DNA of 64,000 nucleotides from a virus. This document shows positions 5,938 to 62,368 of the stretch, piece by piece. Below the pieces are notes generated by a model. The model saw only the letters and a list, made by a program, of their open reading frames with translations. It did no database searches and was not told the origin of the DNA. The translations under genes were made by a program, and so were the position numbers. The stretch lies in the IMG/VR virus record IMGVR_UViG_3300037092_000015, positions 1 to 64,000 of that record; one strand, written 5' to 3'. Every line of letters starts with the position of its first letter. Position 1 is the first letter of the stretch.

Positions 5938-5996
5938 GCGCATTTCGTAACTATTTTTCAAGCGGCTCGTTCAGCTACGGTGCTGTGCGGGGGCGG

Positions 5997-6191: not shown

Positions 6192-6199
6192 TGTTACGG

Positions 6200-6886: not shown

Positions 6887-6890
6887 ATCA

Positions 6891-7277
6891 CTACCACGTC
6901 TCCGCGCCACGGTCCCGCTGCACGATGGGAGGCGGTAGATCCACATTCACCCCATGCTTGCCGAGTTCCGAAACCCAGAACTGCCGTATGTCGGGTTCAC
7001 AGTGCGCCATTGCGTCTGCCCACGTCGGCCACCGTTGGTGCTTGCCGTGAAACCAGTATTGCCAGTAGAGGCTCTGTTGATTGTGCGGCTGCTCAGGCGA
7101 GTGCTTTACGGCGCACGCTTGGCACACGTCCGGCCTTGGAGGCAGCAAATACGCTCCTGAATTGATTGGGATTTCCGCGGCAGCATCTGCTACAGCCGCA
7201 CGCTTCGGCGCTTGGCGCTTGGTTTGCGGCGCTTTGACGCCCGGAGCGGGGCTTGGCAGCGGTTTAGCCGTGCTCAC
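6891..7277 (-). CDS. Hypothetical protein (128 aa)
   Basis: The GTG start at 7277 overlaps the preceding TGA (GTGA), which decides it against a longer frame. The N-terminus is Pro/Lys-rich and low complexity. The C-terminal half is compact with CQACAVKHSPEQ and many Trp residues (YWQYWFHGKHQRWPTWADAM). It sits just before the methyltransferase and may be coupled to it. No family was recognised. Confidence 0.65.
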   Translation of the reverse strand: MSTAKPLPSPAPGVKAPQTKRQAPKRAAVADAAAEIPINSGAYLLPPRPDVCQACAVKHSPEQPHNQQSLYWQYWFHGKHQRWPTWADAMAHCEPDIRQFWVSELGKHGVNVDLPPPIVQRDRGAETW

Positions 7278-7708
7278 GCGCCAGCGCCCTCGGTAGCAGA
7301 CGCCTTGGCCGCCAATTCTCCGTAGGTCGCCCATAGGTCCGGGAACGCTGCCTTGATCCGCGCTAAGTTGCTGGCGTCCGCTCGGTATCCCGCTTCCGCT
7401 AGCATGGAAACGAATCCGCCGCCGTTTACCCGCATCTGCCACAGCACCGCCTGGTCGCTTACAAGCTGCGTGTGTGTTGGCGTCTTGACTACGTTCGGAT
7501 GCTCGCTACCGCTTACGCCCAGCAGCACCGCCAACCCTTCCTCAAGGTCCGCCACGTGCTTCGCCTGAGCCTCCGACGTGGCGTAGTCGTCTGGGTGCGC
7601 TCGTGCTAAGTTTAAGGCGAAGCGCAGACCGCTTTCAAAAAAACGCTTCATTCCGTGCTCGGTGTCTAGCACCACTTCGTTGCCGTCTTTAATCCACTTG
7701 CTTTGCAT
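7274..7708 (-). CDS. Hypothetical protein (144 aa)
   Basis: A strong GAAAGGAAACT site precedes the ATG. The protein is soluble and largely helical. The N-terminal part contains GMKRFFESGLRFALNLARAH. No recognisable domain. It overlaps the next gene by GTGA. Confidence 0.65.
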   Translation of the reverse strand: MQSKWIKDGNEVVLDTEHGMKRFFESGLRFALNLARAHPDDYATSEAQAKHVADLEEGLAVLLGVSGSEHPNVVKTPTHTQLVSDQAVLWQMRVNGGGFVSMLAEAGYRADASNLARIKAAFPDLWATYGELAAKASATEGAGA

Positions 7709-7764
7709 AGTTTCCTTTCATTTGGTTGTTGTTCTTGCTGTCACCATCCTTGCGTGTTTGTGTC

Positions 7765-8127
7765 CTACTTGACTATCATATCTATCAACGTCGCGCCACT
7801 GTAGATAGTGTCCGCCGGCTTCTTGTCCGCTTCGTAGCTATAGCCTTTGAGCAGCGCCAGCACCGCCTCGCTTTCCTTGATAGATGTGCCGCACTGTTTT
7901 GCCCGCTGCTCCGACGCTAATGCTTCACCTTCAAACACTGCCGCTACCACGTTCGGCTGGCCATCCTTGCGCTTCATCCGGGATGCCGCTCGGCGCATCT
8001 TAACTGCCTTTGACTCTGCCTTCTGTTCCTCGCAGGCAAGCTCCTTCATGCTCTGCATTACTGTCTGCCGCGCCAAGTCCACCAAGTCCTCCTTGTCTGC
8101 GTCCCGCTGCCGCGCTAGTTCTACCAT
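7765..8127 (-). CDS. Hypothetical helical protein (120 aa)
   Basis: The start at 8127 uses the A of the upstream TGA (TGATG), which fits the packing here better than the longer frame. The protein is charged and helical (MVELARQRDADKEDLVDLAR) with a basic middle. No domain was recognised. It follows the SNF2-like helicase and may be translationally coupled to it. Confidence 0.65.
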   Translation of the reverse strand: MVELARQRDADKEDLVDLARQTVMQSMKELACEEQKAESKAVKMRRAASRMKRKDGQPNVVAAVFEGEALASEQRAKQCGTSIKESEAVLALLKGYSYEADKKPADTIYSGATLIDMIVK

Positions 8128-10013
8128 CAACGCGCACAGATTCTGCACCGCCGCATCCGGCTTGTTTCGATCTCCAGTGTCGCCAGTCCGGTCGTAGCAT
8201 TCTCGCCGCGCACGCCTGCCCCGTCGGAGGTGCCCGACACTGGAAGAGCATCGCCGCACGCCGCCGCATCCGAATTGTCTAGCACGCTGCCCAGTTCCAC
8301 CGCCAGCACCGGCTCCGCGCCGACCACCATAGCAGCGCCCTTGTCTAGTACCCGGTCGGCTACGTCTTGCTTGCGCACGATAGTCTTCACCATCTTCGCG
8401 TCTAAGCTCCCTTCAAGAACTAGGTGCTGAACTAGCACTGCGTCTGCCTGCCCGATGCGGTGCGTCCGATCTTCTGCCTGGCTCACGATGCCGGGCCTCC
8501 AGTCCAGTTCAGCCATGACTACATGACTGGAAGCCGTCAGCGTGATGCCGACACCCGCCGCTGTGATGCTCCCGATAAACAGCGTGACTGTCGGATCTTC
8601 TTGGAATGCCCGCACTGCCGCATCTTTATCCGCTTCTGTCATGCCGCCGTAGAGGTGCACCGCCGCCGCTCCAAACTCCGCTTGCAGCGCGTCCACTACG
8701 TCCCGGTGGTGAGCAAAGCAGACAACTTTACCCTCGTCCATTGCAAGCCGCAAGTGCTCTATCACAGCCGGTATCTTTGCGACCGCAACCGCGTGCCGTT
8801 GCTTTGCAATTTCTTCGAAGGCAACCGAGTAGGCTTTCTTTAGCTGGTCCGCTAGCGCCGCGTATCCCGTCTGGTCGTCCGCCATCGCCGCTGCCGCAAC
8901 TTTAGCCTTGAGCGTGGTCAGCCGCGCCTCATGCGCCGCGAACGCTTCCGCTTCCTCACGCACCAGTCCGGCGCTACCGTTAGCTGCGATCTCAATTATC
9001 TGCCTGCGCTTCGGTGGCAGGTCTTTCAGCACGTCCTTTTTTAGCCTTCGCACCATCACAGTTGAACGGAGACGGTTGTGCAACTCATCCAAGTGCGACG
9101 CACCGCTAAAATCCCATCCCCACCCGTTTTGGAACCCCGCGCAATAACGTATCTGGTCTTTGAACCCCCACTTGCCGGGCTCTAGCGACCGCAGCAACGG
9201 GAACAGTTCGATAGGCCGGTTGATCAGCGGCGTGCCAGACATGAACACCCGGCGCCGCGCCTTCACCCCGTCATGCCCAGGTTCTTGCCCACGCGCCTTC
9301 TTGCCGAGCACGATCTTGGTTCTGGCTGCTTTTGGATTTTTCAGGTGGTGGCACTCATCGCAGATAAACAGGTCCCACACCGTCGCAGTTATCGCTTTCT
9401 CGAACTTGCCTGCAATATCGTAGTTCATCACCACCACGTCGCACACGTCTCCTATCCATGCCTCTTTTGCCAGTTGGACACCCACCCTAAGCGGTCTCAC
9501 GGCCCACTTCGCTATCTCCCTGCTCCAGTTGAGCTTGAGCGATGCGGGACACATAACCAGCACCCGCTTCACCGTCGGGTCCATGTTGATTATTCCGATA
9601 GCTTGGATCGTCTTCCCCAGCCCCATCTCGTCGCCTATCAGCGTCCCGGGACGACCGGCGGCGAACGATATTCCCGCCTTTTGGAACGGCATGTAAGCCA
9701 GACCGTCTGGCACTGGTATCGCCACGTCCGCGTCTATCGCCTTGCTGGCTTCAATAGCTTTGTTCTCTTGCGCCGCCTGACCCGCACTCACCGGCTGCCA
9801 CCAGCAACATTCCCAGTTCCCGGTTCGTTTGTCCTTGGACCAGCTCACGCCCGCCGATTTGAGCGGGTGGTCCGGCATGGCTTTGCTCGCCTTCCACGCT
9901 GCGCTGAACGCTTCCGTCGGCGATGCCTTACGGAGCAACCGCCGCCCGTTGCTCGTCAGCACTTCTTTTGAAGCAGACCATGCAGCCAGCTTCTCAATTT
10001 CAACGGTGTTCAC
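8127..10013 (-). CDS. SNF2-family DNA-dependent ATPase/helicase
   Basis: A 628-residue superfamily 2 protein with a GTG start overlapping the previous stop. Motif Ia GDEMGLGKTIQA (127-138), DExH box DECHH, MSGTPLINRP (motif III) and EDRTHRIGQAD (motif VI) are all present, so both RecA-like lobes are intact. Such phage proteins translocate on duplex DNA and probably act in replication, recombination or transcription. The last 60 residues are of unusual composition and may be disordered. It lies in a run with UvrD-like and Rad50-like proteins. Confidence 0.92.
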   Translation of the reverse strand: MNTVEIEKLAAWSASKEVLTSNGRRLLRKASPTEAFSAAWKASKAMPDHPLKSAGVSWSKDKRTGNWECCWWQPVSAGQAAQENKAIEASKAIDADVAIPVPDGLAYMPFQKAGISFAAGRPGTLIGDEMGLGKTIQAIGIINMDPTVKRVLVMCPASLKLNWSREIAKWAVRPLRVGVQLAKEAWIGDVCDVVVMNYDIAGKFEKAITATVWDLFICDECHHLKNPKAARTKIVLGKKARGQEPGHDGVKARRRVFMSGTPLINRPIELFPLLRSLEPGKWGFKDQIRYCAGFQNGWGWDFSGASHLDELHNRLRSTVMVRRLKKDVLKDLPPKRRQIIEIAANGSAGLVREEAEAFAAHEARLTTLKAKVAAAAMADDQTGYAALADQLKKAYSVAFEEIAKQRHAVAVAKIPAVIEHLRLAMDEGKVVCFAHHRDVVDALQAEFGAAAVHLYGGMTEADKDAAVRAFQEDPTVTLFIGSITAAGVGITLTASSHVVMAELDWRPGIVSQAEDRTHRIGQADAVLVQHLVLEGSLDAKMVKTIVRKQDVADRVLDKGAAMVVGAEPVLAVELGSVLDNSDAAACGDALPVSGTSDGAGVRGENATTGLATLEIETSRMRRCRICAR

Positions 10014-10426
10014 TTACCACCTCCCGCTGTCCGCGCCGACCACTTCACCAGCACCGCCCGCAGCGCATCCCGCTCCTCAGCAACCGCGATTGCCGCCCTC
10101 TGGGTGGCCAGGAGCAACTCCTTGGCCGCGTCCCGCTCCGCAAGCAGGGCGGCGTGCGCGTTTCCGGACTCCGCTTGAGTTGCTTTAGCGTCAGTAATAA
10201 TCCTTGCCAGAGCCTTTTCAAACCTATCCCGCATTGCATCGCATTTCGCGGAAGGGTTTGCAATGCTTCCAGTTAAAAACGCCGTCCCCAGGGCTTCCAA
10301 TACTTGCAGTGTTTTCGCATTCATGTCTTGCTTTCGTGCTTGGAACCGGGCTGCCACGGTCGCGGGCGCTTCCTGCCCCGCTTCGCTGCCGCCGCTCTTT
10401 GTTGTCTTTGTTGTTGTCCGATTCAC
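10010..10426 (-). CDS. Hypothetical coiled-coil protein (138 aa)
   Basis: GTG start; a low-complexity Thr/Lys/Gly N-terminus is followed by long Ala/Glu-rich helices (AERDAAKELLLATQRAA, AEERDALRAVL) that should form a coiled coil. The stop overlaps the helicase start (GTGA). No family was recognised. Confidence 0.6.
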   Translation of the reverse strand: MNRTTTKTTKSGGSEAGQEAPATVAARFQARKQDMNAKTLQVLEALGTAFLTGSIANPSAKCDAMRDRFEKALARIITDAKATQAESGNAHAALLAERDAAKELLLATQRAAIAVAEERDALRAVLVKWSARTAGGGK

Positions 10427-50643: not shown

Positions 50644-52488
50644 TCAATCCGCGCCCAGCCCGCGAGGGCGGGGCGACATTCGGTTCGTCTTTGAAATTTC
50701 GTCCACGGTTGCCACGACATTTTTCCACTCGCCGTTTCCGGTTCCCGCAACCTTGCACTTCACAACGGCCTGCTCGACCTTTGCCAACTGCTCCGCCGTA
50801 GCCTTGGACAGCGCCGCTCGCAGCCGGTAGCTGCTAGCCGCCGCCCGCGCCTCAACCTGCTCCGGCTCCTGTTCGCCGCCGACTGGTGCCCCGCCTTGCG
50901 CCTCTGATTGCAAAGCCATCGACGCCTTTGCTTGCTGGACTTGACGTTCTAGTTGCTGTTCAAACTTTTCCTCTTCGGTCAGCGCCTCTCCTTGGACCTG
51001 TATCACGCCGTTCACAAGCACTTGGTCACCAGGTTGCGGCTGCTTCAACCCGACCACCTTGTAGGCTTCTTCCGCAACCACCGGCATCTTGCACGTCGTA
51101 GTGATCGTGCCCATGCGTACCGCCGCTTCCTGCGGAGACTCAATGTGCGTAAAGTCAGCCGTCACCCTCGGGCGCTCCTTGGCGTCACCGTAATTCACAG
51201 TCAGTAGCGTCGTGGCGAACTGGTACTCCAAAACTTCTGCCACCCAGTCCGTTACCGCTTCAAGCTTCTCCTGCTTAACTTCACCGTGCACCTTGCCTAG
51301 ACCGTAGCTGCCGCCGCCTTTGCCTTGGTCTCCCGTGTCGCTAGTTAGCGTTTGGCCTAGGAACAACTGCTCGCACCACTTCTCTGCAAGGGAAATCATC
51401 ACCCTTATCGGGTTGTCCGCCGTGATGCTCTGCGGTGCTATCACAGTCGGCTTCATGCTATCGCTCTGCGCTGCATAGACGATGAAACCTTGCGCCGCGC
51501 ACCGGGCCGCCGCCGCCTCGAACTGGTCAATCTCTGACTGAGAAATGCCTGGCATGTATGGGATGGCCATGAACGGGTTGCCGAACTTTTGCCCGAAGTT
51601 GCGCATCCAGTCCATCGCAAACACGATGTTCAGCCACGCCGTAGCAATGCACCGCATCTCGCCCGCCATGAGAAAGCTGCCGCTCTTGCTCTTGTGCTTC
51701 GCCACCATGAACTTGCGCGGGTCGTTCAGCAGCTTGCGCGGCACAACAGAACCCGGAAACGAAAGGTTGTCCTCTCCGCGCCCGTCGTCCGCAACCCCCA
51801 CACTTCCGTCCGCCTGCACCGCTATGTAGCGCGGGTTGACCCACCCGGACGCACGCACTGTTCGCTCTAGCTTGCCGCCGCCTACCGATGCAGGGTTTGA
51901 CCAGAGCAGTTCCGTGATGCTGATACCGTTCGGTATGGCGTCCGTAAGGTCGTAAACCATCCCCTTGAAGTTGTCCTCTTCCTTGAACCTGTCCGGCTCG
52001 AAACTACCGAAACTGCGCCGCACGAAGTCCGCCTTCTCAACCGCGCTCTTAGTCGGCGGTGTGCTTTCGTCAACCGTGAACGGAGTTACCTTGTAGTTCA
52101 CCATCTTTGCCGCCGTCCGCAACGTGTTCAAGCAGCGCCGATACGTCGGCCACGTGTCTGCGATTTTCACTCCCAAAGCTGCTTGCTGCCAAAGCGACCC
52201 CGCCGCCGCGCCACGAAGCAACGCGGAAATTTGCGGGATGGAGAGCACGTCTGGCAATCCCAACCACCAATCACTGAGCGCGTTTGCTGGCACCTGCCGC
52301 CCCGCCAAGTCCCCCGCCGCCGCCTTCGCCGGCACTTGCTTGCCGCGCCGTATCGAAGCAGGCAGTTCACCAACGGCCCTAACCAAGTTTGACACCGCGC
52401 CGCCAAATGGAAACGACACGGCCTTGACCGGCTTCCGGTTCACCGTGTAGAGGAGGTAATTAACTACTCCGGCGAGATACGCTACCAC
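50644..52488 (-). CDS. Portal protein, DUF935 (Mu gp29-like), 614 aa
   Basis: Start at the GTG of 52488, set by a GGAGG site 7 bases upstream. Conserved stretches of the Mu-type portal are visible: IADTWPTYRRCLNTLRTAAK, FKGMVYDLTDAIPNGISITE, GEMRCIATAWLNIVFAMDWM, FGNPFMAIPYMPG. Forms the dodecameric vertex for DNA packaging. A Gln/Glu-rich C-terminal region (from about 500) is probably flexible. First structural gene after promoter P52.6. Confidence 0.9.
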   Translation of the reverse strand: MVAYLAGVVNYLLYTVNRKPVKAVSFPFGGAVSNLVRAVGELPASIRRGKQVPAKAAAGDLAGRQVPANALSDWWLGLPDVLSIPQISALLRGAAAGSLWQQAALGVKIADTWPTYRRCLNTLRTAAKMVNYKVTPFTVDESTPPTKSAVEKADFVRRSFGSFEPDRFKEEDNFKGMVYDLTDAIPNGISITELLWSNPASVGGGKLERTVRASGWVNPRYIAVQADGSVGVADDGRGEDNLSFPGSVVPRKLLNDPRKFMVAKHKSKSGSFLMAGEMRCIATAWLNIVFAMDWMRNFGQKFGNPFMAIPYMPGISQSEIDQFEAAAARCAAQGFIVYAAQSDSMKPTVIAPQSITADNPIRVMISLAEKWCEQLFLGQTLTSDTGDQGKGGGSYGLGKVHGEVKQEKLEAVTDWVAEVLEYQFATTLLTVNYGDAKERPRVTADFTHIESPQEAAVRMGTITTTCKMPVVAEEAYKVVGLKQPQPGDQVLVNGVIQVQGEALTEEEKFEQQLERQVQQAKASMALQSEAQGGAPVGGEQEPEQVEARAAASSYRLRAALSKATAEQLAKVEQAVVKCKVAGTGNGEWKNVVATVDEISKTNRMSPRPRGLGAD

Positions 52489-52592
52489 TTTGCACCTCCA
52501 CAAAGGAAAAGGCCGGCGGCTTCGGGACACCTGTATCCCGGAGCCGCCTGGCCCCCCATACCCACAACCGTCACTGTGTTGCCGAATCTCAC
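52482..52592 (-). CDS. Putative leader ORF (36 aa) before the portal gene
   Basis: Frame VRFGNTVTVVGMGGQAAPGY, then RCPEAAGLFLCGGAKW, ends with TAG overlapping the portal GTG. It contains the hairpin at 52515-52548. Same length (36 codons) and layout as the leader at 17714-17824. Confidence 0.4.
   Translation of the reverse strand: MRFGNTVTVVGMGGQAAPGYRCPEAAGLFLCGGAKW
52515..52548 (-). terminator. Hairpin in the portal leader (attenuator-like)
   Basis: On the minus strand GGCGGCT-C-CGGGA / TCCCG-A-AGCCGCC pairs almost perfectly around an 8-base loop and is followed by GGCCTTTTCC. It may terminate early transcripts or gate portal translation. Confidence 0.5.
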
Positions 52593-53512: not shown

Positions 53513-53767
53513 TTAAGTTTGCTTGCTGCCGCTGTTCGCTGCCGCCTCTAACGCCCTGTCGTATTCTGCCTCGTCAAACTCTATCCTGCCGTTGAACCTG
53601 TGCACCGGCCCGATACCTACCGCCGCCCGCCACTCATCATGCAACCGCTCACACCGTAGCCGCCTCTGCGTCTTGCTGTTCGGGTTCGGCAAGCTGCACA
53701 GCAACTGCCGAGCTGCCGCGTGTTTGAGGTTCGCTACCTTGCACTCGCGTCTCTGCTTCGGAGTCAT
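53513..53767 (-). CDS. Small basic protein (84 aa)
   Basis: ATGA overlap with the large terminase gene. Arg/Lys-rich N-terminal helix (MTPKQRRECKVANLKHAAAR) and a helical acidic end. Possibly DNA-binding. Confidence 0.6.
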   Translation of the reverse strand: MTPKQRRECKVANLKHAAARQLLCSLPNPNSKTQRRLRCERLHDEWRAAVGIGPVHRFNGRIEFDEAEYDRALEAAANSGSKQT

Positions 53768-55155
53768 AGCCTTCCTATCATCCTTTCCTCACCTGGACGT
53801 CCTGCCGACTGGCTCTTCCATGCGCCACTCCCAAACACCGAGGCGGAACTGAATCCGCCAGACACCCCGAGCGCCACTGCCAGATAGCGCAAGGCATCAA
53901 GCGCATGATCGTTCTCCTTCACCGGCTGGTCCTTCGGTTTGTCCGGCGCCCAGACGTAGCTCTCGAACTCGTTTATCAAATTAACGCACGATGGGTCTAC
54001 CGTCAGCCGTGGCCGCCCGTCACCTGCCACCTTGAGCAAGTTCTGTATCTTGTTGATGCCATCAATCACCCTTCCCTTTTCCCCGCGTGCGAACACCTGC
54101 ATGGAGTTCATGTCCGCTATCAGCCCAGCCGCCGCCTCGTCCACCGCTGCGAACTCGTGCCGTCGCCCTTCGGCCTTGAACCACTTGCACGCCTGCCCGA
54201 CTACAACGTTCTGTAGCTGGCCGCGCTCATACCACTCTTGAAACACATGCCAACGACCATCGCTGTCCAAACCTACGTCCAGAATCACAGCCGGGTTCGT
54301 GTAGCCCTCGTCGCACGCTAGCAGCCACCGCTTCATGTCGCCAGGCTGCCGAACCAGCACATGCACCGCTGCGCTGAACCCGTCATACACCGCACCCTCT
54401 GCCGACGCCCACGCGCCCTCGAACAGCCGCTTTCGACGCATTCCAGTCAGGTCGTTCAGCACCGCCATGCGCCGGCTACCGTCCTCTGTCAATATATAGG
54501 TGCATCCATTGCGTATAACGGAACCTTGCGGGTTGCCTTGAGGAAACTCTTTAGCCGCTTGTTCCGGTGTCAGGTTTCGGTAGATAGTAGGGTTGTCGGT
54601 GTGCACTGACGACAGCAACCGAATCTTTCCATCCTTAGCCCGCTTTCGTATCCAGTGCTGACTCCCGCCAGGGTTCGCGTCACCGTAGAGTTGCGGCCAC
54701 TTCACAACCGCCCCGCGACCGCTGCACCGTGTTGCTAAATACTCCCAGTCGTTAAGGGAAAGCTCCTCTGTCTGGCATGTGTAAATAAAATCACGCTCGC
54801 TGCTAAGGATGCGGTCTGGATTGTCCATTCCACCGCACCATATCGTTGACCCGTTCGGGTAGATGAAACGCGACGGGGTTTCCCCTCCGAACGCCTCTAC
54901 TCCGCCGTTGCCATGTGTCACCTTGGCAAACGTCTTTAGCACAGACCCCGCTAGACTAGCCGCAGTCTTGCGCACAATAGCCCCCTGGCAGCCCGGGTAG
55001 GTCATGCACAATATGTGCGCCTTCATACAGCACGGCCACGTCTTGCCAGTGTCCGAAGGACCACAAATAATAACCTCGTGCTCCCTCGACGCCACCAAGT
55101 CGTAAGCGGCCCCGCGTAGTGGCTCCTTCTTTGACTTGACGATGCGCCGCGCCAT
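53764..55155 (-). CDS. terL: Terminase large subunit (463 aa)
   Basis: Start at 55155, which shares the A of the preceding TAA. Walker A GPSDTGKT (32-39) and the coupling region CQTEELSL belong to the ATPase half; LACDEGYTNPAVILD and AAVDEAAAG fit the RNase H-like nuclease, followed by NDHALDALRYLAVAL, the usual terminase ending. It pumps DNA into the prohead and cuts the concatemer, working with the small subunit immediately upstream and the portal. Confidence 0.93.
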   Translation of the reverse strand: MARRIVKSKKEPLRGAAYDLVASREHEVIICGPSDTGKTWPCCMKAHILCMTYPGCQGAIVRKTAASLAGSVLKTFAKVTHGNGGVEAFGGETPSRFIYPNGSTIWCGGMDNPDRILSSERDFIYTCQTEELSLNDWEYLATRCSGRGAVVKWPQLYGDANPGGSQHWIRKRAKDGKIRLLSSVHTDNPTIYRNLTPEQAAKEFPQGNPQGSVIRNGCTYILTEDGSRRMAVLNDLTGMRRKRLFEGAWASAEGAVYDGFSAAVHVLVRQPGDMKRWLLACDEGYTNPAVILDVGLDSDGRWHVFQEWYERGQLQNVVVGQACKWFKAEGRRHEFAAVDEAAAGLIADMNSMQVFARGEKGRVIDGINKIQNLLKVAGDGRPRLTVDPSCVNLINEFESYVWAPDKPKDQPVKENDHALDALRYLAVALGVSGGFSSASVFGSGAWKSQSAGRPGEERMIGRL

Positions 55156-55739
55156 TACGGAAGGTCCTTCTCCGCCACGCCGCAATCCCACACTGCCGTC
55201 GCCTCAGTGCCATCCGGTGCCTTGACCGACAATGTGCCACCCTCCCGTGGCGGCTCCCGGTATGTCTTTGGGTCATGCGACTTGAGTAAGAATATGGTCA
55301 GGGTGTCGCTAAACTCCCTCACCTTGTCCACGCATACGGGCTTGCCAGCGGCATTCTTCATCCAGATGCGCTTCTCTACCCCGTCTCTTGCCCGTTTAAT
55401 CGCCGCATTTGTTAGCCTGCCGACTGCTAACTTTAAGGCTTGGTCCCATTGCTTAGCGAACAGTTGGCTTTTCTTTCGAGCATTGTAGGCGGTCGGTGGC
55501 GTGATTCCAGCCTCCTCGCACGACGCTGCTACGTTAGGCACGTTAGCTAATGCCGTAAGGAACTTACTTCGCCAATTACCTTTGCCGGCAGCCGTACTTC
55601 GCCGCCTTCCTTTTTTAATTCCTTTAGGCGTAACTTTCGTAAATGCTTCCTTGTCACCCTGCCCCGGCCTTATCGTAGTGCCTACGGGCTTGCCTTTCGC
55701 ATTTAACTTAACCCCATGTTGGCTGCCGTTGCCGTTCAT
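55155..55739 (-). CDS. terS: Terminase small subunit (194 aa)
   Basis: The N-terminal 45 residues are basic and disordered. An HTH follows (FLTALANVPNVAASCEEAGI, then TPPTAYNARKKSQLFAKQWD). The C-terminal FSDTLTIFLLKSHDPKTYRE is typical of phage small terminases. It recognises the packaging site and hands DNA to the large subunit. Confidence 0.85.
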   Translation of the reverse strand: MNGNGSQHGVKLNAKGKPVGTTIRPGQGDKEAFTKVTPKGIKKGRRRSTAAGKGNWRSKFLTALANVPNVAASCEEAGITPPTAYNARKKSQLFAKQWDQALKLAVGRLTNAAIKRARDGVEKRIWMKNAAGKPVCVDKVREFSDTLTIFLLKSHDPKTYREPPREGGTLSVKAPDGTEATAVWDCGVAEKDLP

Positions 55740-56025: not shown

Positions 56026-56053
56026 TGCGCTGTTATGTAACTTTGGTTAGGGG

Positions 56054-56710
56054 TCATAGCAGCACGCCTTGGTTTGCCTCGCGTTCCAGACGGGAGCAGG
56101 CGGTTGCGTAGTGTGTCGGATTCTTCTCGATGCCCACGAAGTTGCGGCGAGTTTTCAGACAGGCCAGCCCTGTGCTTCCGCTGCCCATCCACGGGTCTAG
56201 CACGGTGTCGCCTTCCTTCGTTACGTCGAGGATGATTTGTTGCATCAGTCGCACCGGCTTCTGTGACGGATGCCCTGTCCATTCGTCGCCAGTGTATGAC
56301 GCCGCGACGGTCGAGTTGATCAGGTATTGCCGATAGACTTTGTAGTTCGCCTGACCGTTGCGCTCGTAGATGCGTTCGTATTGGCTTCCGCAGCCTGTCT
56401 TTTTATCCCAGATGTGGATTGCCGTGTAGTCGAGCGGGAAGTCCGCCTTCGCAGACCAGAAGATGAGTTGCCGACATTCTATCAGGCGCAGAGATTCGAG
56501 CAGCCCGTCCTCGTATCCGTAGGCTTCCGCGTGGTAGTCAGGATATGGCGGGTCACAGATTATCACGTCGCACTTCATCGGGAGCATCGTCTGGCAGTCG
56601 CCGAGTATGAGAGTCGCCACGACATGACCCCTAACAAATCGCTTCAGCGAACCGCCGTTGGGCGTCGCAGGCGAGTTCGGGAGCGTTAGCTCGGCGGTCG
56701 CTGAGCTCAT
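56054..56710 (-). CDS. Cassette 1: DNA methyltransferase (DPPY type)
   Basis: Motif IV CDPPYPDYHAEAY and motif I-like DPWMGSGSTGLACL identify an amino-methyltransferase (N6-A or N4-C) of the beta order. The ATG at 56710 is inside attC a, so the first 30 residues are attC-encoded. A GTG at 56620, with the core site GTTAGGGG as a possible ribosome site, would give a more natural start (VATLILGDCQTM). It is less similar to the enzyme at 6200 than the cassette 10 enzyme is. Confidence 0.88.
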   Translation of the reverse strand: MSSATAELTLPNSPATPNGGSLKRFVRGHVVATLILGDCQTMLPMKCDVIICDPPYPDYHAEAYGYEDGLLESLRLIECRQLIFWSAKADFPLDYTAIHIWDKKTGCGSQYERIYERNGQANYKVYRQYLINSTVAASYTGDEWTGHPSQKPVRLMQQIILDVTKEGDTVLDPWMGSGSTGLACLKTRRNFVGIEKNPTHYATACSRLEREANQGVLL

Positions 56711-56719
56711 ACGTTAGAC
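56630..56719 (+). repeat. attC-like site a
   Basis: Cores CCCTAAC (56630) and GTTAGAC (56713-56719). Arms TCGCTTCAGCGAACCGCCG versus AGCTCAGCGACCGCCG differ by two extra bases in the left arm (T and A). Confidence 0.85.
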
Positions 56720-56867
56720 AGCCGGGCCGCACGTTGGGTTTGCGTTTGGTTTTCGACCAGCGGGCGGCGACCGCAGCGCGGGCTTGCTCGCTGGTGCGGG
56801 CTTTTGCCGCGCCAGTCCCAGCAGACCCTCCGAGTTTTCCGAGCGCGACCGCGGCGGGATTTTTCAT
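56631..56867 (-). CDS. Cassette 2: KNPAAVALGKLGG-type small protein (78 aa)
   Basis: ATGA with the upstream gene fixes the start. Product MKNPAAVALGKLGGSAGTG, then AKARTSEQARAAVAARWSK, a small basic family seen in phages and cassettes, possibly DNA-binding. The last 25 residues (ELSDRRANAPELACDAQ and on) are encoded by attC a; the stop TAG lies in its core. Confidence 0.7.
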   Translation of the reverse strand: MKNPAAVALGKLGGSAGTGAAKARTSEQARAAVAARWSKTKRKPNVRPGCLTYELSDRRANAPELACDAQRRFAEAIC

Positions 56868-57133
56868 TGAACTAAACATTTTGCCGCGCCGAGCGCGTCT
56901 GCCGTGATTCCAATCCGAAGCATATCTTCCGCCGCCCTGCGGGATTTTGGCCCGTAGTAATTTTCCCCCAGGAAGCTGCCAGCCTTGCAGTCAATCCATT
57001 CGATTTGGTCGGGCGCGATTTGCACCCCATCGCGGTCGCAGATTTGTTCGCCTCGAATTTCGACACCCTCACTCACAACCAACATTTTCGTTACCGGATC
57101 AATCCGGTTTTTTATTCTGGCACAGGTATTCAT
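56864..57133 (-). CDS. Cassette 2: hypothetical protein (89 aa)
   Basis: Beta-rich start (TKMLVVSEGVEIRGEQICDR) with a helical end. Second of three genes in the longest cassette. No family was recognised. Confidence 0.65.
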   Translation of the reverse strand: MNTCARIKNRIDPVTKMLVVSEGVEIRGEQICDRDGVQIAPDQIEWIDCKAGSFLGENYYGPKSRRAAEDMLRIGITADALGAAKCLVQ

Positions 57134-57172
57134 ATTTTTAAGCAGGGATTAGTTTCCTCTCCCTTTGATTTT

Positions 57173-57496
57173 TTAATAGCGTTCGCCGGGAAGGTCTGGG
57201 GTTGCCCGGAGTTTGGGGCGCGCAAGGAAGGCTTTGTTGCTCGCTTCGCGAGCCGCTTTGCCAGCCTCACGTTGAGCCGCCGCCGCCGATTCTTCTTGCT
57301 GATAGGCGGCCAATTGTGCGGTATGCACACGAGCGCCAACCACTTTACCTTCGGGTGAATATTTGCTTCCGACCAGATGAAACGGAATGGCTTCACCTTT
57401 TGCGGTTTTGAAGCCGCCTTCCGGTTGAAGGATTGCATCTGTCCACTGTCCGCCGCCGGTTTGTCCGGCTGGCACTCTTGGTTCGTCTTCGTTCAT
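57173..57496 (-). CDS. Cassette 2: NEDEPRVPAGQTGGGQW protein (107 aa)
   Basis: Starts MNEDEPRVPAGQTGGGQWTD, a motif usually found at the ends of phage head proteins and in small phage ORFs, followed by a helical Ala/Glu/Gln-rich tail. GAAAGAAAAA precedes the ATG. Downstream of a cassette promoter. Related to the cassette 3 protein. Confidence 0.75.
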   Translation of the reverse strand: MNEDEPRVPAGQTGGGQWTDAILQPEGGFKTAKGEAIPFHLVGSKYSPEGKVVGARVHTAQLAAYQQEESAAAAQREAGKAAREASNKAFLARPKLRATPDLPGERY

Positions 57497-57544
57497 TTTT
57501 TCTTTCGTTGGCTTGGCTTACTGGGCCTCGCCCTTTATGCCTGC

Positions 57545-57573
57545 AATATACGCAAGCGATTGCGTATATGCAA
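57545..57573 (-). promoter_or_regulatory. Cassette 2 promoter with overlapping palindrome
   Basis: On the minus strand: -35 TTGCAT (57568-57573), 17-base spacer, -10 TATATT (57545-57550). The perfect palindrome ATATACGCAA-N4-TTGCGTATAT (57546-57569) fills the spacer and suits a repressor site. Confidence 0.6.
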
Positions 57574-57635
57574 ACAAAATCTTCATTTATTTACACACTC
57601 ACAAAACCATTGATTCTATTGACTCAAACCGGCCT

Positions 57636-57735
57636 GCCCAACAAATCGCTGCACGCAATGACCGCCGCATTGGGCGTCATTGGCGAGTTCGGGCATCGTG
57701 GGCGCGGCGTTCATGCGTGAGCTTGGTCGTTGGGC
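57636..57735 (+). repeat. attC-like site b
   Basis: Cores GCCCAAC and GTTGGGC. Left arm GCTGCACGCAATG versus right-arm complement GCTCACGCATG: two unpaired bases (G and A) in the left arm. Confidence 0.85.
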
Positions 57736-57760
57736 GCTTAGTCACTCCGCGCCCGATGCG

Positions 57761-58075
57761 TTACGGGTTTTTCGTGTAGTCCTTTTCCCCCGCCTTTTGG
57801 ATATCCTCGAAAAATCCAGGCCGATGCACTCGCGCCACCGGCGAGTTGAACCACGGATTGTTGCGTTGCGCCCAGTCCACGGCCTTCTCCCCAGCGCGCG
57901 GCAGTGCGGCCTGCGCCTCTTTGATGGCTTGCGGAATATGCGTTTGCTCGATGTTTGTCCGCTGAGGCAGGCTTTGGAGTCTGCCGATTTCGGAGCTGAT
58001 GACCGCTCCCGTCTCGGGCATGAATTGCCCGCCTTCCGGCGATCCCGCCGGGACTCTTGGTTGATCTGGATTCAT
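57761..58075 (-). CDS. Cassette 3: NPDQPRVPAGSPEGGQF protein (104 aa)
   Basis: Starts MNPDQPRVPAGSPEGGQF, about 25 bases after the core of attC c. The rest is helical (PQAIKEAQAALPRAGEKAVD). Same family as the protein at 57173; the motif suggests origin in a phage head or minor structural gene. Stop 26 bases before attC b. Confidence 0.75.
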   Translation of the reverse strand: MNPDQPRVPAGSPEGGQFMPETGAVISSEIGRLQSLPQRTNIEQTHIPQAIKEAQAALPRAGEKAVDWAQRNNPWFNSPVARVHRPGFFEDIQKAGEKDYTKNP

Positions 58076-58098
58076 TGTGTGTTTTTGTTGTTCGACGC

Positions 58099-58193
58099 GC
58101 CCAACCAATCACTGGAGCGAATGCAGGCGGGCGCTGCCTGTTCGCAAATTCGGATGTCAGTGGCCGCCTGCATCGCTCAGTTCTGCGTTCGGC
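58099..58193 (+). repeat. attC-like site c
   Basis: Cores GCCCAAC and GTTCGGC. Left arm ACTGGAGCGAATGCAGGCGG versus ACTGAGCGATGCAGGCGG: extra G and A. Nearly identical to site g. Confidence 0.88.
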
Positions 58194-58465
58194 ATCTGAA
58201 ATTCCAATTGCCTCTGGACCGGCTTGTCGAACGTTTTCCACGCTGGGTCAGTACAGAAGGGATGCAGGTCCACGAAGGCATTGTAGTAGATCCCCCAGGA
58301 GTGTGTGATGCAGATTCTGAGATTCAGTCGGAAGTTGTATTCTTCCGTAGTCAGGTATCGGTCATCATCGGCCTCCGAATGCCGAACCAGACGCTCCACA
58401 CGAACCGCCGCCAGCCTCTCGGACTCCGGGAGGCTGTTTCGTTTTCGGGCGGCAGTGGTGTTCAT
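58157..58465 (-). CDS. Cassette 4: hypothetical protein (102 aa)
   Basis: The frame begins inside attC d (MNTTAARKRNSLPESE) and ends inside attC c (PNAELSDAGGH), so both ends are attC-derived. The cassette-specific middle (TTEEYNFRLNLRICITHSWG, then YNAFVDLHPFCTDPAWKTFD) looks protein-like. Function unknown. Confidence 0.5.
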   Translation of the reverse strand: MNTTAARKRNSLPESERLAAVRVERLVRHSEADDDRYLTTEEYNFRLNLRICITHSWGIYYNAFVDLHPFCTDPAWKTFDKPVQRQLEFQMPNAELSDAGGH

Positions 58466-58494
58466 GGCGGCGGTCGGTGAGCTACTTGTTCGGC
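58381..58494 (+). repeat. attC-like site d
   Basis: Cores GCCGAAC and GTTCGGC. The longest of the set (114 bp). Arms GCTCCACACGAACCGCCG and GCTCACCGACCGCCG on comparison. Confidence 0.8.
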
Positions 58495-58799
58495 GCGCGC
58501 AGGCATTCCTCCCACGTCATGCCGCAGACTTTCTTGTAATGCTTTGCCGAGGCCACCAGTTCCCGCGCGGTCTTTCCCGACGCGACGACCTGCTCTCGCG
58601 TGTAGTCGAAGTTCACCGGCTTTCCGTCTTGGTCCTGCCATTGGCCTTCGCTGCGCTCGTTCCAGCCCAGGACCAGGAAGTGGGTTCCGTAGGGAGAAGT
58701 GATGCGCGCCGCGTCGCACTTGAACATGCGGACGAATCGCCGAACCAAGCGCTCCAGACAACCGCCGACGGGCGTCTCTTTTGAAGTCGTAGCGTTCAT
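58482..58799 (-). CDS. Cassette 5: hypothetical protein (105 aa)
   Basis: Starts in attC e (MNATTSKETPVGGCLERLV) with ATGA shared with the stop of the cassette 6 gene. The cassette-specific part, THFLVLGWNERSEGQWQDQD and YTREQVVASGKTARELVASA, looks like a small alpha/beta protein. Ends in LRAPNK at the core of attC d. Confidence 0.6.
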   Translation of the reverse strand: MNATTSKETPVGGCLERLVRRFVRMFKCDAARITSPYGTHFLVLGWNERSEGQWQDQDGKPVNFDYTREQVVASGKTARELVASAKHYKKVCGMTWEECLRAPNK

Positions 58800-58829
58800 G
58801 TCGGCGGTGTCTGAGCTTGGTCGTTCGGA
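58739..58829 (+). repeat. attC-like site e
   Basis: Cores GCCGAAC and GTTCGGA. Arms GCTCCAGACAACCGCCGAC versus GCTCAGACACCGCCGAC: extra C and A in the left arm. It contains an ATGA stop/start. Confidence 0.85.
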
Positions 58830-59176
58830 GATGCATTAATGCGCTTGATAATACAGCTTGTGCAGAGCGTTCTCCCTCGTGTGGTCGTTGGCAGACTCCC
58901 CATCCGGCCTGTGTTCTGCGGAAATGCTGCGATGATATTCCTGGCATTGCTCCGCGCTTTGGATAGCTGCTCACGCTTGTTCCCCCCCAGCCTAGGGGCG
59001 ACCAGTGCAGATAGCGCGTCCAGCAGGATTCGCTCTCGCGCTCGGACAGCCGTTCCCAGTCCTGAGACTGATGTTGGTCCGCGGACGATACCATTGCATA
59101 GGTCGGTGATCTGGCTCTCAATCGCAGAACCAAGCGGGTCGAGCGAACTGCCCGATTGCGTCTCAGGTTTATTCAT
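58796..59176 (-). CDS. Cassette 6: hypothetical protein (126 aa)
   Basis: ATGA overlap with the second gene of the same cassette. Helical (SLDPLGSAIESQITDLCNGI, RARERILLDALSALVAP, SKARSNARNIIAAFPQNTGR) with a CTSC pair near the end. Last residues NDQAQTPPT are encoded by attC e. Confidence 0.6.
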   Translation of the reverse strand: MNKPETQSGSSLDPLGSAIESQITDLCNGIVRGPTSVSGLGTAVRARERILLDALSALVAPRLGGNKREQLSKARSNARNIIAAFPQNTGRMGSLPTTTRGRTLCTSCIIKRINASPNDQAQTPPT

Positions 59177-59472
59177 AGCGTTTTGGCGGGCAGTCGCTCA
59201 CCCGCGGCGTTCGGTGGAAGCGGTTGACCGCATTCCTTGCAACAGCTTGGGGCCTTCTGCTTCTCTGCCAGTTCTGCGTCGTGGACCAGCATCGCCGCTG
59301 CCAACCTTCGGCTGGCCATCGTGAAACGGCGCCACAAATATTCTTCGTGCGTTTGCAGGCACGGCCTTGGTCTGTTCGTATGCGCCAGCGCCCATGCATC
59401 CCTCCACCAAACGCACCGAACCAATCGCGGCAGCGAACCGCCGACTGGCGTTGTTGCAATAGGGGTGTTCAT
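59173..59472 (-). CDS. Cassette 6: zinc-binding protein (99 aa or shorter)
   Basis: The frame starts in attC f (MNTPIATTPVGGSLPRLV). An internal ATG (MASRRLAAAMLVHD) may be the real start. The C-terminal SCCKECGQPLPPNAAGE has a Cys cluster fit for zinc. Function unknown. Confidence 0.5.
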   Translation of the reverse strand: MNTPIATTPVGGSLPRLVRCVWWRDAWALAHTNRPRPCLQTHEEYLWRRFTMASRRLAAAMLVHDAELAEKQKAPSCCKECGQPLPPNAAGERLPAKTL

Positions 59473-59508
59473 TGGTGGTTATCGCCGCCGCTCAGCTTGT
59501 CGTTGGGG
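59415..59508 (+). repeat. attC-like site f
   Basis: Cores ACCGAAC and GTTGGGG. Arms pair less regularly than the others. The 20 bases after the right core (GCGCTTAGTCACTCC...) recur after site b. Confidence 0.7.
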
Positions 59509-59535
59509 CGCTTAGTCACTCCACGCCCAGTTACG

Positions 59536-59811
59536 CTATTGCGCGGTGTTTTCACACGCCGGTAGTGCCGATGTGTCGGCGACTTTCTTGATGTCCCCAA
59601 GCTTGGCTCGTACGTCGTCAATGTGCAGGCATTCCGCCAGGTTGCATCCAGCTTGGTCTGCTACCGGCACGGCTAGGTTGCCGTTGCAGGCGTCGTTTCC
59701 AGGAGTCGCATCGTGGAGTATTCCGACGATGGACTTCACGTAGTATCCGGGCGGCACGATGCGGAGCACGCGGTCCCCGTTCTTTGCTTCTCTTCCGTTT
59801 GCGTAGTGCAT
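59536..59811 (-). CDS. Cassette 7: hypothetical protein (91 aa)
   Basis: MHYANGREAKNGDRVLRIVP and YVKSIVGILHDATPGNDACN are typical of a small SH3-like beta-barrel fold in phage proteins. Free ATG about 27 bases from the attC g core, so it needs no attC-encoded start. Confidence 0.7.
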   Translation of the reverse strand: MHYANGREAKNGDRVLRIVPPGYYVKSIVGILHDATPGNDACNGNLAVPVADQAGCNLAECLHIDDVRAKLGDIKKVADTSALPACENTAQ

Positions 59812-59837
59812 ACTTATGTTCTGTGTTTACCGTCGCG

Positions 59838-59932
59838 CCCTAACCAATCACTAGAGCGAATGCAGGCGGGCGCTGCCTGTTCGCAAATGGGTTTGTCAGT
59901 GGCCGCCTGCATCGCTCAGTTCTGTGTTCGGT
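59838..59932 (+). repeat. attC-like site g
   Basis: Cores CCCTAAC and GTTCGGT. Nearly identical to site c over its whole length, with differences mainly in the outer cores and the loop. Confidence 0.88.
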
Positions 59933-60123
59933 GATGTGTTTTCCACGGTCACATACCCAAGGAATGCCATCGTTTTCCCGCAACAGCGAGGCATGGGAGC
60001 ATCTGCCCCGAGATAGGCAGGCACATATTCCTCTCGCCCACACTGTCGGCAGTAGTGCTTGAAGCATCTCACCGAACGAGCCGCGTCAGCCAACGGCGGG
60101 GTTACGCTTTTAGTGTTCTTCAT
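59896..60123 (-). CDS. Cassette 8: zinc-ribbon protein (75 aa)
   Basis: Starts within attC h (MKNTKSVTPPLADAARS) and ends in attC g (NTELSDAGGH). The middle CFKHYCRQCGREEY ... MPRCCGKTM is a zinc ribbon. The smallest cassette body (about 140 bp). Confidence 0.55.
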   Translation of the reverse strand: MKNTKSVTPPLADAARSVRCFKHYCRQCGREEYVPAYLGADAPMPRCCGKTMAFLGYVTVENTSPNTELSDAGGH

Positions 60124-60162
60124 ACGTCCTTTGGCCCGCCGTGGCTGCGCTCTGTGTTATGC
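60071..60162 (+). repeat. attC-like site h
   Basis: Cores ACCGAAC and GTTATGC. Arms GCGTCAGCCAACGGCGGG versus GCGCAGCCACGGCGGG: extra T and A in the left arm. Confidence 0.82.
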
Positions 60163-60163
60163 C

Positions 60164-60241
60164 CTACCATCGGAAGGTTCCCGTATCGTCGATTTTGCGG
60201 GTGAGCCACCAGACCACGATCATCAGTATTATCAGTTCCAT
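60164..60241 (-). CDS. Cassette 9: small membrane peptide (25 aa)
   Basis: MELIILMIVVWWLTRK is a single transmembrane segment with a charged tail. It follows the 64-residue gene by 5 bases with a GGGAATAAATAAACC stretch before the ATG. Ends at the core of attC h. Confidence 0.45.
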   Translation of the reverse strand: MELIILMIVVWWLTRKIDDTGTFRW

Positions 60242-60246
60242 ATGGT

Positions 60247-60441
60247 TTATTTATTCCCTCTGAGCAGGCGGTAGGCGCGGATCGCTACAGCGTCCCACAC
60301 GGCTACTGATTCGCTTGGCAGGTCTCTGAATTTACAGAGGGGGCGCCCCCAGATTGATTTTGGCTGGCTCAGCATTTCTTTCCGGCTAGCGTTGTAGAGT
60401 TTGATAGCCAGTGTTCGGGCTTCATCTAGTTTTTGTTTCAT
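60247..60441 (-). CDS. Cassette 9: hypothetical protein (64 aa)
   Basis: ATGA overlap with the upstream gene. Basic helix (MKQKLDEARTLAIKLYNASR) and LCKFRDLPSESVAVWDAVAI. No family was recognised. Confidence 0.6.
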   Translation of the reverse strand: MKQKLDEARTLAIKLYNASRKEMLSQPKSIWGRPLCKFRDLPSESVAVWDAVAIRAYRLLRGNK

Positions 60442-60665
60442 GGCAGTAGGTCGTTGAGGCGCTTCTGGAGCGCGGTTGCCAGCACGCTAACCTTTGTCTG
60501 TTGCTCTGAGGCTGGCAGGTTTTCGATTTCGTAGCACAGGTTCAGCGCGGCGCTTCTGGCGTCCCCGATTCCCCGGTGCAGTTTGATTTCTTTCGCAGTC
60601 GTAGCCGTGGCCACCTGCGAGAGTTCCAGATACAGGCTGTTGATAGTGTCGAGTTCCATAGGCAT
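60438..60665 (-). CDS. Cassette 9: hypothetical protein (75 aa)
   Basis: The ATG at 60665 lies in the core GTTATGCC of attC i; a second ATG follows at 60659. Helical (INSLYLELSQVATATTAKEI, SVLATALQKRLNDLLP). Part of a three-gene cassette. Confidence 0.6.
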   Translation of the reverse strand: MPMELDTINSLYLELSQVATATTAKEIKLHRGIGDARSAALNLCYEIENLPASEQQTKVSVLATALQKRLNDLLP

Positions 60666-60720
60666 AACCAATCACGCCACCGAACCGGCTCCGCGCCGGT
60701 CGGTGAGTTCCTTGTTATGC
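60662..60720 (+). repeat. attC-like site i (59 bp)
   Basis: Cores GCATAAC and GTTATGC; the outer 8 bases are perfectly complementary. At 59 bp it is the size of a classical 59-base element. Arms show the same extra C and A. Confidence 0.9.
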
Positions 60721-60938
60721 CTGCACCCCAGGACGTGAGTGATGGTGCCGCCATTCGGGCCGGGGTCGTTGAGGCACTCGGGGCACTGCACGGCCATTTT
60801 GTCCGCGCAGGTTTTTCCCGGCGCATATGTCGCGCAGTTCGAGCATTCACCGAGCAGATACCATCCGCACCAGCACTTTGCTGCCGCTGGCAGGTTGCTC
60901 AGCATGTCCATGTATTCTTGTTGGTCAGAGTTAAACAT
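60672..60938 (-). CDS. Cassette 10: Cys-rich protein (88 aa)
   Basis: Start MFNSDQQEYMDML. Cys-rich pairs KCWCGWYLLGECSNC and VQCPECLNDPG suggest two zinc sites. The last residues NKELTDRRGAGSVA come from attC i. Function unknown. Confidence 0.65.
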   Translation of the reverse strand: MFNSDQQEYMDMLSNLPAAAKCWCGWYLLGECSNCATYAPGKTCADKMAVQCPECLNDPGPNGGTITHVLGCRHNKELTDRRGAGSVA

Positions 60939-60946
60939 CGCAGCGC

Positions 60947-61630
60947 TCACAATTCATCCGGTTCGCAGGCGTTGTCGAAGTGCCGCTTGTCCTTCTCGAC
61001 GCCGATAAATTTACGACCAGTCCGCAGGCAGGCGATTCCCGTGCTGCCGCTGCCCATGTATGGGTCTAGCACCGTTGCCCCGACCGGCACGCCAACTTGT
61101 TCCAGACACCACGCCATCAGCGCGACCGGCTTTTGGTTGCTGTGGATTCGCGGCTCGTCCTTTTCCTTCGCTTGCGCACCGTTCCAATAGCGCGTTTTCA
61201 GCCGCAGAACGCCGTCCTGGTTTGTCCACGCCGTCTCGCCGTCGGCCTGGTCGTTGCTTGGGATGCCTTCGCGCTTGTCCCATATCAGCCACCGTGAGGA
61301 GTTCGGCAGGCGGTTCGCGTAGTGATTCGCGCCCCACAGCACCACAATTGGATAGCCGAGCCACGGGCGCGGGTCGAACGGCTTGTCATCGCCCATGATT
61401 GCCTCGCCATCAGTGCCGAGTTTCACGCCGCCTTTACGCGCTCCGTGGCAGTAGGCGATTCCATACGGCGGGTCGCTGATTAGCGCGTCCGCGTCTATCC
61501 ACGGAAGCTCCAGACAGTCGGCATTGATTAGTCGGCAGTCTCCGATTGTGACCCCTAACAAGTCGCTGCACGCAATGCCCACCGCGTTCACGGTTTGCTT
61601 GCAATCGGGTGCTGTTGGCGCGGTGGTCAT
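60947..61630 (-). CDS. Cassette 10: DNA methyltransferase (DPPY type)
   Basis: SDPPYGIAY (motif IV) and DPYMGSGSTGIACL (motif I-like) in beta order. Close homologue of the backbone enzyme at 6200-6886. The only ATG upstream of the conserved NADCLELP lies in attC j (61630), so the N-terminus (MTTAPTAPDCKQTVNAVG) is attC-encoded unless a TTG in the core is used. The C-terminus is short. Confidence 0.88.
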   Translation of the reverse strand: MTTAPTAPDCKQTVNAVGIACSDLLGVTIGDCRLINADCLELPWIDADALISDPPYGIAYCHGARKGGVKLGTDGEAIMGDDKPFDPRPWLGYPIVVLWGANHYANRLPNSSRWLIWDKREGIPSNDQADGETAWTNQDGVLRLKTRYWNGAQAKEKDEPRIHSNQKPVALMAWCLEQVGVPVGATVLDPYMGSGSTGIACLRTGRKFIGVEKDKRHFDNACEPDEL

Positions 61631-61650
61631 GCGTGAGCTAGTCGTTATCC
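61553..61650 (+). repeat. attC-like site j
   Basis: Cores CCCTAAC and GTTATCC. Arms GCTGCACGCAATG versus GCTCACGCATG: extra G and A, the same as in site b. Confidence 0.85.
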
Positions 61651-61965
61651 TTCATGCTGTGTAGGTATTCCGTGGTCAGGGTGCTGGTATTCTGGATACT
61701 TGCGGCCCTTGACAGGCTCTCCGCGCAGCGGAGCTCCGCACTGCTCCATACATGCCACTCCAGTTGCTGTGATCTGTCGGATTTCATGCAGCGCCTTGTC
61801 GTCGCCGTGCCCTGTTACCCACGCATGGCGGGCATCGTTGCACAGTTTTTCGATGATGAGCAGCCACTCGGCTACACAGTGTTGATGATCGGGCCACTTC
61901 TGTTCTTGGTAGGCGCGTTCGCCTTCGATTGCATGTCTTACGTCTGCATCTATATGTCGATTCAT
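61645..61965 (-). CDS. Cassette 11: hypothetical phage-type protein (106 aa)
   Basis: RHAIEGERAYQEQKWPDHQH, VAEWLLIIEKLCNDARHAWV and ALHEIRQITATGVACMEQCG match a helical family often seen in phages near nucleotide-metabolism genes. Function not established. ATG 2 bases before the attC k core. Confidence 0.75.
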   Translation of the reverse strand: MNRHIDADVRHAIEGERAYQEQKWPDHQHCVAEWLLIIEKLCNDARHAWVTGHGDDKALHEIRQITATGVACMEQCGAPLRGEPVKGRKYPEYQHPDHGIPTQHEG

Positions 61966-61966
61966 A

Positions 61967-62057
61967 GGATAACGAGTCGGTTCAGCGACTGCCGGGTTCG
62001 CGTTTGGGTTTCAGTTCGGGAGTCAGCGGCCCGGCATCGCTGACCTCTTTGTTCCGG
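61967..62057 (+). repeat. attC-like site k
   Basis: Cores GGATAAC and GTTCCGG. Arms GGTTCAGCGACTGCCGGG versus GGTCAGCGATGCCGGG: extra T and C. Last site of the array on the right. Confidence 0.82.
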
Positions 62058-62368
62058 GCTGCCGATCCGGAACCTTTGCATGTGGGGCATTTCCGCCCTG
62101 GCTCAGCTTGTTTGTTCGTCGCGCCGGAATGAGCGCCGCCAGCCTCTTCCTTGGCTGCCGCAAGTTCACCCTGCCTCAGCCGAACGCTAGCCGTGATTGA
62201 CTGCCGCATGGTCCAGCCGTCCTCGTCGCGGCCTCGCGCCTTCCAAAATCGCCGCGCACCGGCCCTCACCGAAGCAGCCATCTGACGCAGCGGCTCACCG
62301 GTCGGATGCTCAAGCACCGTCTCCCAGTCTCCCTGCTGAATCGTTGCTAGATTTAGACCGTCGTTCAT
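61982..62368 (-). CDS. Border protein with DnaJ-like Cys motif (128 aa)
   Basis: Helical protein with RKCPTCKGSGSA, a DnaJ-like CxxCxGxG repeat that may bind zinc. The final 28 residues are read from attC k (KEVSDAGPLTPELKP), so the array either inserted into this gene or the gene itself was captured. Confidence 0.6.
   Translation of the reverse strand: MNDGLNLATIQQGDWETVLEHPTGEPLRQMAASVRAGARRFWKARGRDEDGWTMRQSITASVRLRQGELAAAKEEAGGAHSGATNKQAEPGRKCPTCKGSGSAARNKEVSDAGPLTPELKPKREPGSR

Follow-up and report, generated by a model that had tools for sequence, protein, structure and literature searches.

A phage-borne integron cassette array whose genes run against their attC sites

The DNA analysed here (the window) is 64 kb of the 75,477-bp IMG/VR record IMGVR_UViG_3300037092_000015 (G000), and directly upstream of its terminase genes it carries a row of attC-like sites separating short gene cassettes. 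This segment is very probably the cassette array of a phage integron in which the polarity of the cassettes is reversed, with the integron integrase IntI either lost or supplied in trans. It also seems probable, if with somewhat less assurance, that several lineages of tailed phages possess an integron class of their own in which all cassettes are reversed, the attC site is a 5' leader that often gives the start codon, the coding strand is the one that recombines, and intI, if present, lies after the array and co-directional with it, the whole being transcribed by the phage.

Twelve attC-like sites of 59-114 bp, the size range initially given for them, can be recognised by eye and by folding on the + strand between 56.6 and 62.06 kb. 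A covariance model (R1) trained on bacterial sequences only, namely 32 Planctomycete and Verrucomicrobial chromosomal attC sites, finds eleven of them when run over the whole record (56629-62057, E-values from 1.5e-13 to 4.4e-4), which is the number proposed for this region by an initial annotation made from the letters of the window. All eleven score best on the + strand and R1 finds no further attC in the rest of the window or record; as a control, the model also recovers class 1 attC sites, on the gene strand. The twelfth site, 59415-59508, is degenerate, is missed by R1 and is known from folding and inspection only. A scanner for the structural architecture of attC finds ten sites of the array with scores of 13.9-16.5 and nothing comparable in the window outside it; in ten shuffled versions of the window, 640 kb in all, no site reaches a score of 13. 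A search of Rfam gave no family match for the sites.

When the sites are aligned, RYYYAAC and GTTRRRY cores are common to all. A short spacer without pairing leads into a 3-bp helix, after which the left arm has two unpaired bases, one on either side of a 6-bp helix, and then a long stem; there are two-sided changes in 7 of the 9 consensus stem pairs. The cores and long imperfect stem of the initial annotation are thus borne out by alignment, folding and the scanner alike, as are its two extrahelical left-arm bases, the second of which is A in every clear site except 61967 (C); 6 bp lie between the two. Folding of the plus and minus strands, which had been put forward as a check, gives a stable structure for either strand. 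attC 3 and attC 8 are 92% identical to each other, and attC 1 is 86% identical over 106 bp to a chromosomal attC of Pedosphaera (Verrucomicrobia). Judged by their cores, extrahelical bases, stem covariation and matches to a bacterial model, the sites can be confirmed as genuine attC, their recombination being a prediction.

The direction of an attC site is set by its unpaired bases. Reading the sites of the class 1 integron L064 in the direction of its annotated genes places these bases on the left arm. In the window it is on the + strand that they occupy the left arm, which makes + the attC top strand, whereas the cassette genes are encoded by the - strand. The window therefore does not show the canonical cassette, with its gene on the attC top strand and the attC at the 3' end, and this opposition of gene and site was overlooked when the array was first described, correctly, as a phage cluster of attC sites lacking integrases (CALIN) adjoining the terminase. 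As strand calls by longest open reading frame (ORF) are unreliable in GC-rich arrays, polarity was called with a codon model that was derived from the contig in question and scores the coding strand of inter-attC segments, and with Pfam domains; the resulting counts include related contigs and are not counts of independent events. By the codon model the window has 0 canonical and 5 inverted cassettes, the phage contig L035 0 and 5, the intI-bearing phage G023 0 and 6, five marine phage arrays 1 and 9, and twelve other contigs with intI downstream 2 and 19, both canonical calls of the last group coming from one locus (L155) where Pfam puts the methyltransferase on the inverted strand. Pfam-recognised cassette genes in phages with inverted arrays are on the inverted strand in 12 of 12 cases, and the two PF01555 methyltransferases of the window, together with its other recognisable cassette ORFs, are on the - strand. 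The chromosomal arrays of Planctomycetes and Verrucomicrobia gave 93 canonical cassettes and 1 inverted among 94 that could be called. The search did not select for polarity, since one DNA pattern retrieved the marine phages, G023 and the first bacterial controls alike, and the possibility that our own definition of canonical polarity was wrong is rejected by the class 1 integron with annotated genes and by the bacterial arrays. The sole inverted call among the bacterial cassettes, L213 (G009 contig C408), could be a piece of phage DNA or else a genuine exception.

In a canonical array the attC that precedes a gene belongs to another cassette. Under reversed polarity the attC and the gene behind it form one cassette, and therefore a start codon within the site, and its frame, would survive movement. 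Across the window, L035 and G023, an ATG within the attC opens a frame of at least 30 codons past the site in 19 of 31 sites if the gene strand is read and in 4 of 31 if the opposite strand is; the pattern is not seen in the marine phage arrays.

Arrays of this kind are found in further phages. In L035, a contig from another metagenome that was found by its terminase alone (45% identity), the scanner places ten attC sites immediately upstream of terS-terL, arranged as in the window. In G023 an intact integron integrase (330 bits, with the IntI-specific insertion) comes after eleven attC sites, array and intI being surrounded by helicase, primase, terminase, portal and major head genes that are all co-directional. 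An identical 236-bp cassette is found twice in G023, with both ends at attC cores and the second copy adjoining intI, a duplication that is the expected product of IntI. The marine phages have whole cassettes in common at up to 97% identity, in differing order and with several ending at the cores; eight related and apparently marine phages (L094, L095, L097, L101, L103, L104, L106 and L107) have arrays that are shuffled between genomes at attC cores and include an RNA ligase among their cargo.

A survey of IntI gave 80 viral contigs that carry it, several of them with head, tail and replication genes. Where the array is upstream of a co-directional intI it is mostly inverted, the exceptional or unclear cases being L136 (a contig of an isolate genome), L131, L158 and L188, and where intI is upstream of the array, as also in Virus Rctr41k, polarity is canonical; intI and cassette genes are co-directional in both layouts. 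In the IntI tree G023 groups with two other viral contigs (100/100) and the sister phages form an IntI clade of their own. A single origin of the inverted arrays is not supported by this tree, which needs at least three changes of polarity. A conserved attI-like sequence, approximately AACTTAAATTC(A/T)ACGACACCC, stands between the variable cassettes and intI in L126, L127 and L163, with weaker forms just upstream of intI in L120, L157 and L182. PAPS-reductase-like cassette genes occur in two separate phage integrons (L116 89-1003 and L163 8115-8867). The scanner gave no clear attC in P12002L, whose DNA is AT-rich, and the scan of phage PH101, which covered the initial 50 kb of its 132 kb, gave no attC match.

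In the window the terminase and portal genes are, like the cassette genes, on the - strand, and follow the array when it is read in gene direction; the other flank has more - strand genes, including those for a DUF5131 protein and another methyltransferase. The array is therefore inside a phage genome, and the flanking terminase and portal genes make it one of the Caudoviricetes. Gene direction is the same across both borders and an ORF at 61982-62368 terminates within attC 12. At 56044, initially taken as the limit of the array, there is a lone GTT core and not an attC. This terminase-side end has a double core, GTTATGTAAC-TTTG-GTTAGGGG, that can be likened to an attI simple site and whose layout resembles the junction before intI in G023 (GGTAAC-AGTTATT-CTAAC) and in other intI-bearing phages. 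No match to TIGR02249 or PF00589, the intI and tyrosine recombinase models, was found in the 64 kb, in agreement with the initial annotation, nor in the full 75,477-bp record, which is possibly short of an end carrying intI; with at least two attC sites and no intI nearby the array is a CALIN, and the intI gene of a complete integron is missing from the record. The description "without an integrase" holds for this record but not in general, as related phage arrays carry intI.

The likeness of the attC sites to Pedosphaera and the TerL (terminase large subunit) relatives weakly suggest Verrucomicrobiota as host. These relatives, L220 and L221 (contigs of 200 and 181 kb in G046), belong to a genome of the same class as a Verrucomicrobial bin; their TerL loci are probably prophages in a bacterial genome and so a host hint for the terminase family, and no attC was found near them. 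An empty site was not found either, none of the upstream flanking genes being shared by the terminase relatives.

Table 1. Positions in the window of the attC sites, the attI-like end, the cassettes and the flanking phage genes.
Feature	Coordinates	Strand	Evidence or remarks
attC 1	56629..56719	+	R1 E 1.6e-10
attC 2	57636..57735	+	R1 E 4.7e-10
attC 3	58099..58193	+	R1 E 3.3e-8
attC 4	58381..58494	+	R1 E 1.4e-4
attC 5	58739..58829	+	R1 E 1.5e-13
attC 6	59124..59215	+	R1 E 4.9e-12
attC 7, degenerate	59415..59508	+	folding only, no R1 match
attC 8	59838..59932	+	R1 E 3.8e-6
attC 9	60071..60162	+	R1 E 1.2e-7 (+), 0.0077 (-)
attC 10	60662..60720	+	R1 E 4.4e-4
attC 11	61553..61650	+	R1 E 1.6e-7
attC 12	61967..62057	+	R1 E 1.9e-6 (+), 1.5e-4 (-)
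putative attI-like double core GTTATGTAAC-TTTG-GTTAGGGG	56032..56053	+	terminase-side array end
N6/N4 DNA methyltransferase	56054..56710	-	PF01555 E 1.5e-22; first ATG within attC 1
three-ORF cassette	56631..57496	-	ORFs 57173-57496, 56864-57133, 56631-56879; no family; AT-rich promoter-like segment upstream
cassette ORF	57761..58073	-	no family
cassette ORF	58157..58465	-	ATG within attC 4
cassette ORF	58482..58799	-	ATG within attC 5; leader MNATTSKETPVGGCLERLVRR
cassette ORF	58796..59176	-	ATG within attC 6
cassette ORF	59173..59472	-	ATG within attC 7
cassette ORF	59536..59811	-	ORF list
cassette ORF, zinc-ribbon-like cysteines	59896..60123	-	ATG within attC 9
two-ORF cassette	60247..60671	-	ORF list
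cassette ORF, cysteine-rich	60672..60950	-	ORF list
second N6/N4 DNA methyltransferase	60947..61630	-	PF01555 E 1.6e-17; ATG within attC 11
cassette ORF	61645..61965	-	ORF list
terminase small subunit (flank)	55155..55739	-	phrog_4044 E 3e-22
terminase large subunit (flank)	53764..55191	-	phrog_5653 E 7e-27, phrog_2 E 3e-25
portal protein (flank)	50644..52530	-	PF06074 E 3e-38

The second methyltransferase of the array is 34% identical over 210 aa to an attC-adjacent methyltransferase of phage TJE1, and the two methyltransferase cassettes are paralogous, with 71% DNA identity over 111 bp (56096-56206 and 60965-61075). Ten of the cassette proteins have no family in PHROGs. A cassette of the window (57500-57600) and one of L035 (5380-5470) both have GAGGCCCAGTAAGCC behind an AT-rich promoter-like stretch, despite a TerL identity of only 45%.

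In integron theory an asymmetric folded attC inserts cassettes so that their genes face away from the promoter Pc and are read by it. For the window we envisage that an IntI from the host, from a co-infecting phage or formerly from the phage itself would recombine the folded bottom strand of attC, here the coding (-) strand of the cassette genes, with the cassette unit consisting of an attC (5') and its gene (3'). A cassette inserted at the attI-like end would become the last of the array, immediately preceding the terminase genes, with its gene in the direction of phage transcription, and therefore no Pc would be needed, expression coming from phage read-through or from the gene's own promoter. 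The cargo of two DNA methyltransferases and small orphan proteins most likely acts against host restriction and in host takeover.

An ordinary CALIN, for which a phage would have taken up part of the chromosomal integron of a host, probably a Verrucomicrobial one, together with its normal cassettes, would seem unlikely. The attC sites of the window do resemble Verrucomicrobial ones to the extent seen with Pedosphaera, two large contigs from a genome of the class of a Verrucomicrobial bin hold TerL relatives, and CALINs in phages are already known (PMC9892861); however, every called cassette of the window is reversed whilst all but one of the bacterial ones are canonical, a flip of the whole array is unable to reverse a gene against its attC, and the sister phages have their own IntI clade. 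As related phage arrays carry their own intI, the array is better read as a phage integron without intI, or one that has lost it, than as a piece of a host integron; in relatives of this same layout an intact intI, co-directional with the genes, directly follows the end that corresponds to the terminase-side one. It is more doubtful still that the sites are hairpins acting at the RNA level, in processing, termination or translation control between the genes of an operon, and merely look like attC: they do lie between co-directional genes, several have start codons in the loop and both strands fold stably, but the core boxes, the two unpaired bases and the covariation of the stem are those expected of attC, a bacterial attC model matches the sites, relatives duplicate and exchange cassettes at the cores, and intI and an attI-like site adjoin the arrays. 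Such hairpins may have a secondary RNA role alongside that of attC. Least credible of all is an integron array joined to a phage by faulty assembly. The record is metagenomic and is known from the contig alone, yet an independent contig of another metagenome (L035) has the same array-terminase neighbourhood, equivalent arrays are embedded in other phage genomes, and co-directional genes run over both borders with one ORF ending inside attC 12.

Several observations weigh against a phage integron of reversed polarity. The G000 record has no IntI, and the related sequences are mostly metagenome contigs. The codon-score margin was exceeded in only 5 of the 9 scored segments of the window, the others leaning the same way or being uninformative, and the length of the longest ORF alone is ambiguous in its GC-rich array (3 inverted, 1 canonical). 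Start codons within attC are strong only in the group of the window, L035 and G023. Finally, polarity is canonical in TJE1, in Rctr41k and in three contigs with intI upstream, by which the idea that all phages are inverted is rejected.

Inverted genes on the same-looking platform are consistent in these phages and hardly ever seen in the bacterial chromosomes tested. If true, phages would have a pool of gene cassettes structurally separate from the bacterial one and a route for swapping anti-defence genes, polarity would be a simple marker separating phage from host cassettes, and it would be seen how an integron is refitted to one-way phage transcription. This suggests a recombination system by which phages shuffle methyltransferases and other counter-defence genes. 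The initial annotation saw in the array a route for moving cassettes between hosts; movement among phages is likelier, because the cassette layout differs from that of host cassettes.

The same annotation held the phage location to be noteworthy by itself, but this is not new: Qi et al. (2023) report integrons and CALINs in phage genomes, with clusters of attC without intI in virulent phages, methyltransferase cassettes, and recombination of 5 of 6 tested phage attC with attI1 via IntI1 (PMC9892861). The polarity of gene against attC is not discussed in those parts of that paper that were read, and the scanner finds canonical polarity in the TJE1 array that they tested; as against the CALINs described there, the window has 11-12 sites, reversed polarity, an attI-like end and sister phages that bear intI. 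Reversed polarity appears to be the new element of our finding, a search of open-access text having turned up no description of systematically inverted phage cassettes. According to a review (PMC8876359), it is through folding of the bottom strand that inserted cassettes are correctly oriented with respect to Pc. The sedentary chromosomal integrons of Planctomycetes and Verrucomicrobia are alike in attC sequence family, structure and IntI homologues but differ in that their genes are on the attC top strand, each gene stands before its attC, and they lie outside phage operons. In integrons of the Treponema type intI is transcribed towards attI and is likewise co-directional with the cassette genes (PMC3607928); there it is intI that is flipped relative to attI, whereas in phages of the G023 type it is the cassette genes that are flipped, intI, attI and attC standing in their usual order. 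Virus Rctr41k (KX853513, our L113) is likewise a phage with an IntI-like gene, co-directional with the cassette genes, and an attC array: at 4680-10101 a gene annotated as xerD is followed by at least five attC-like sites. It differs from the window and its relatives in that its cassettes are canonical and its intI lies upstream of the array.

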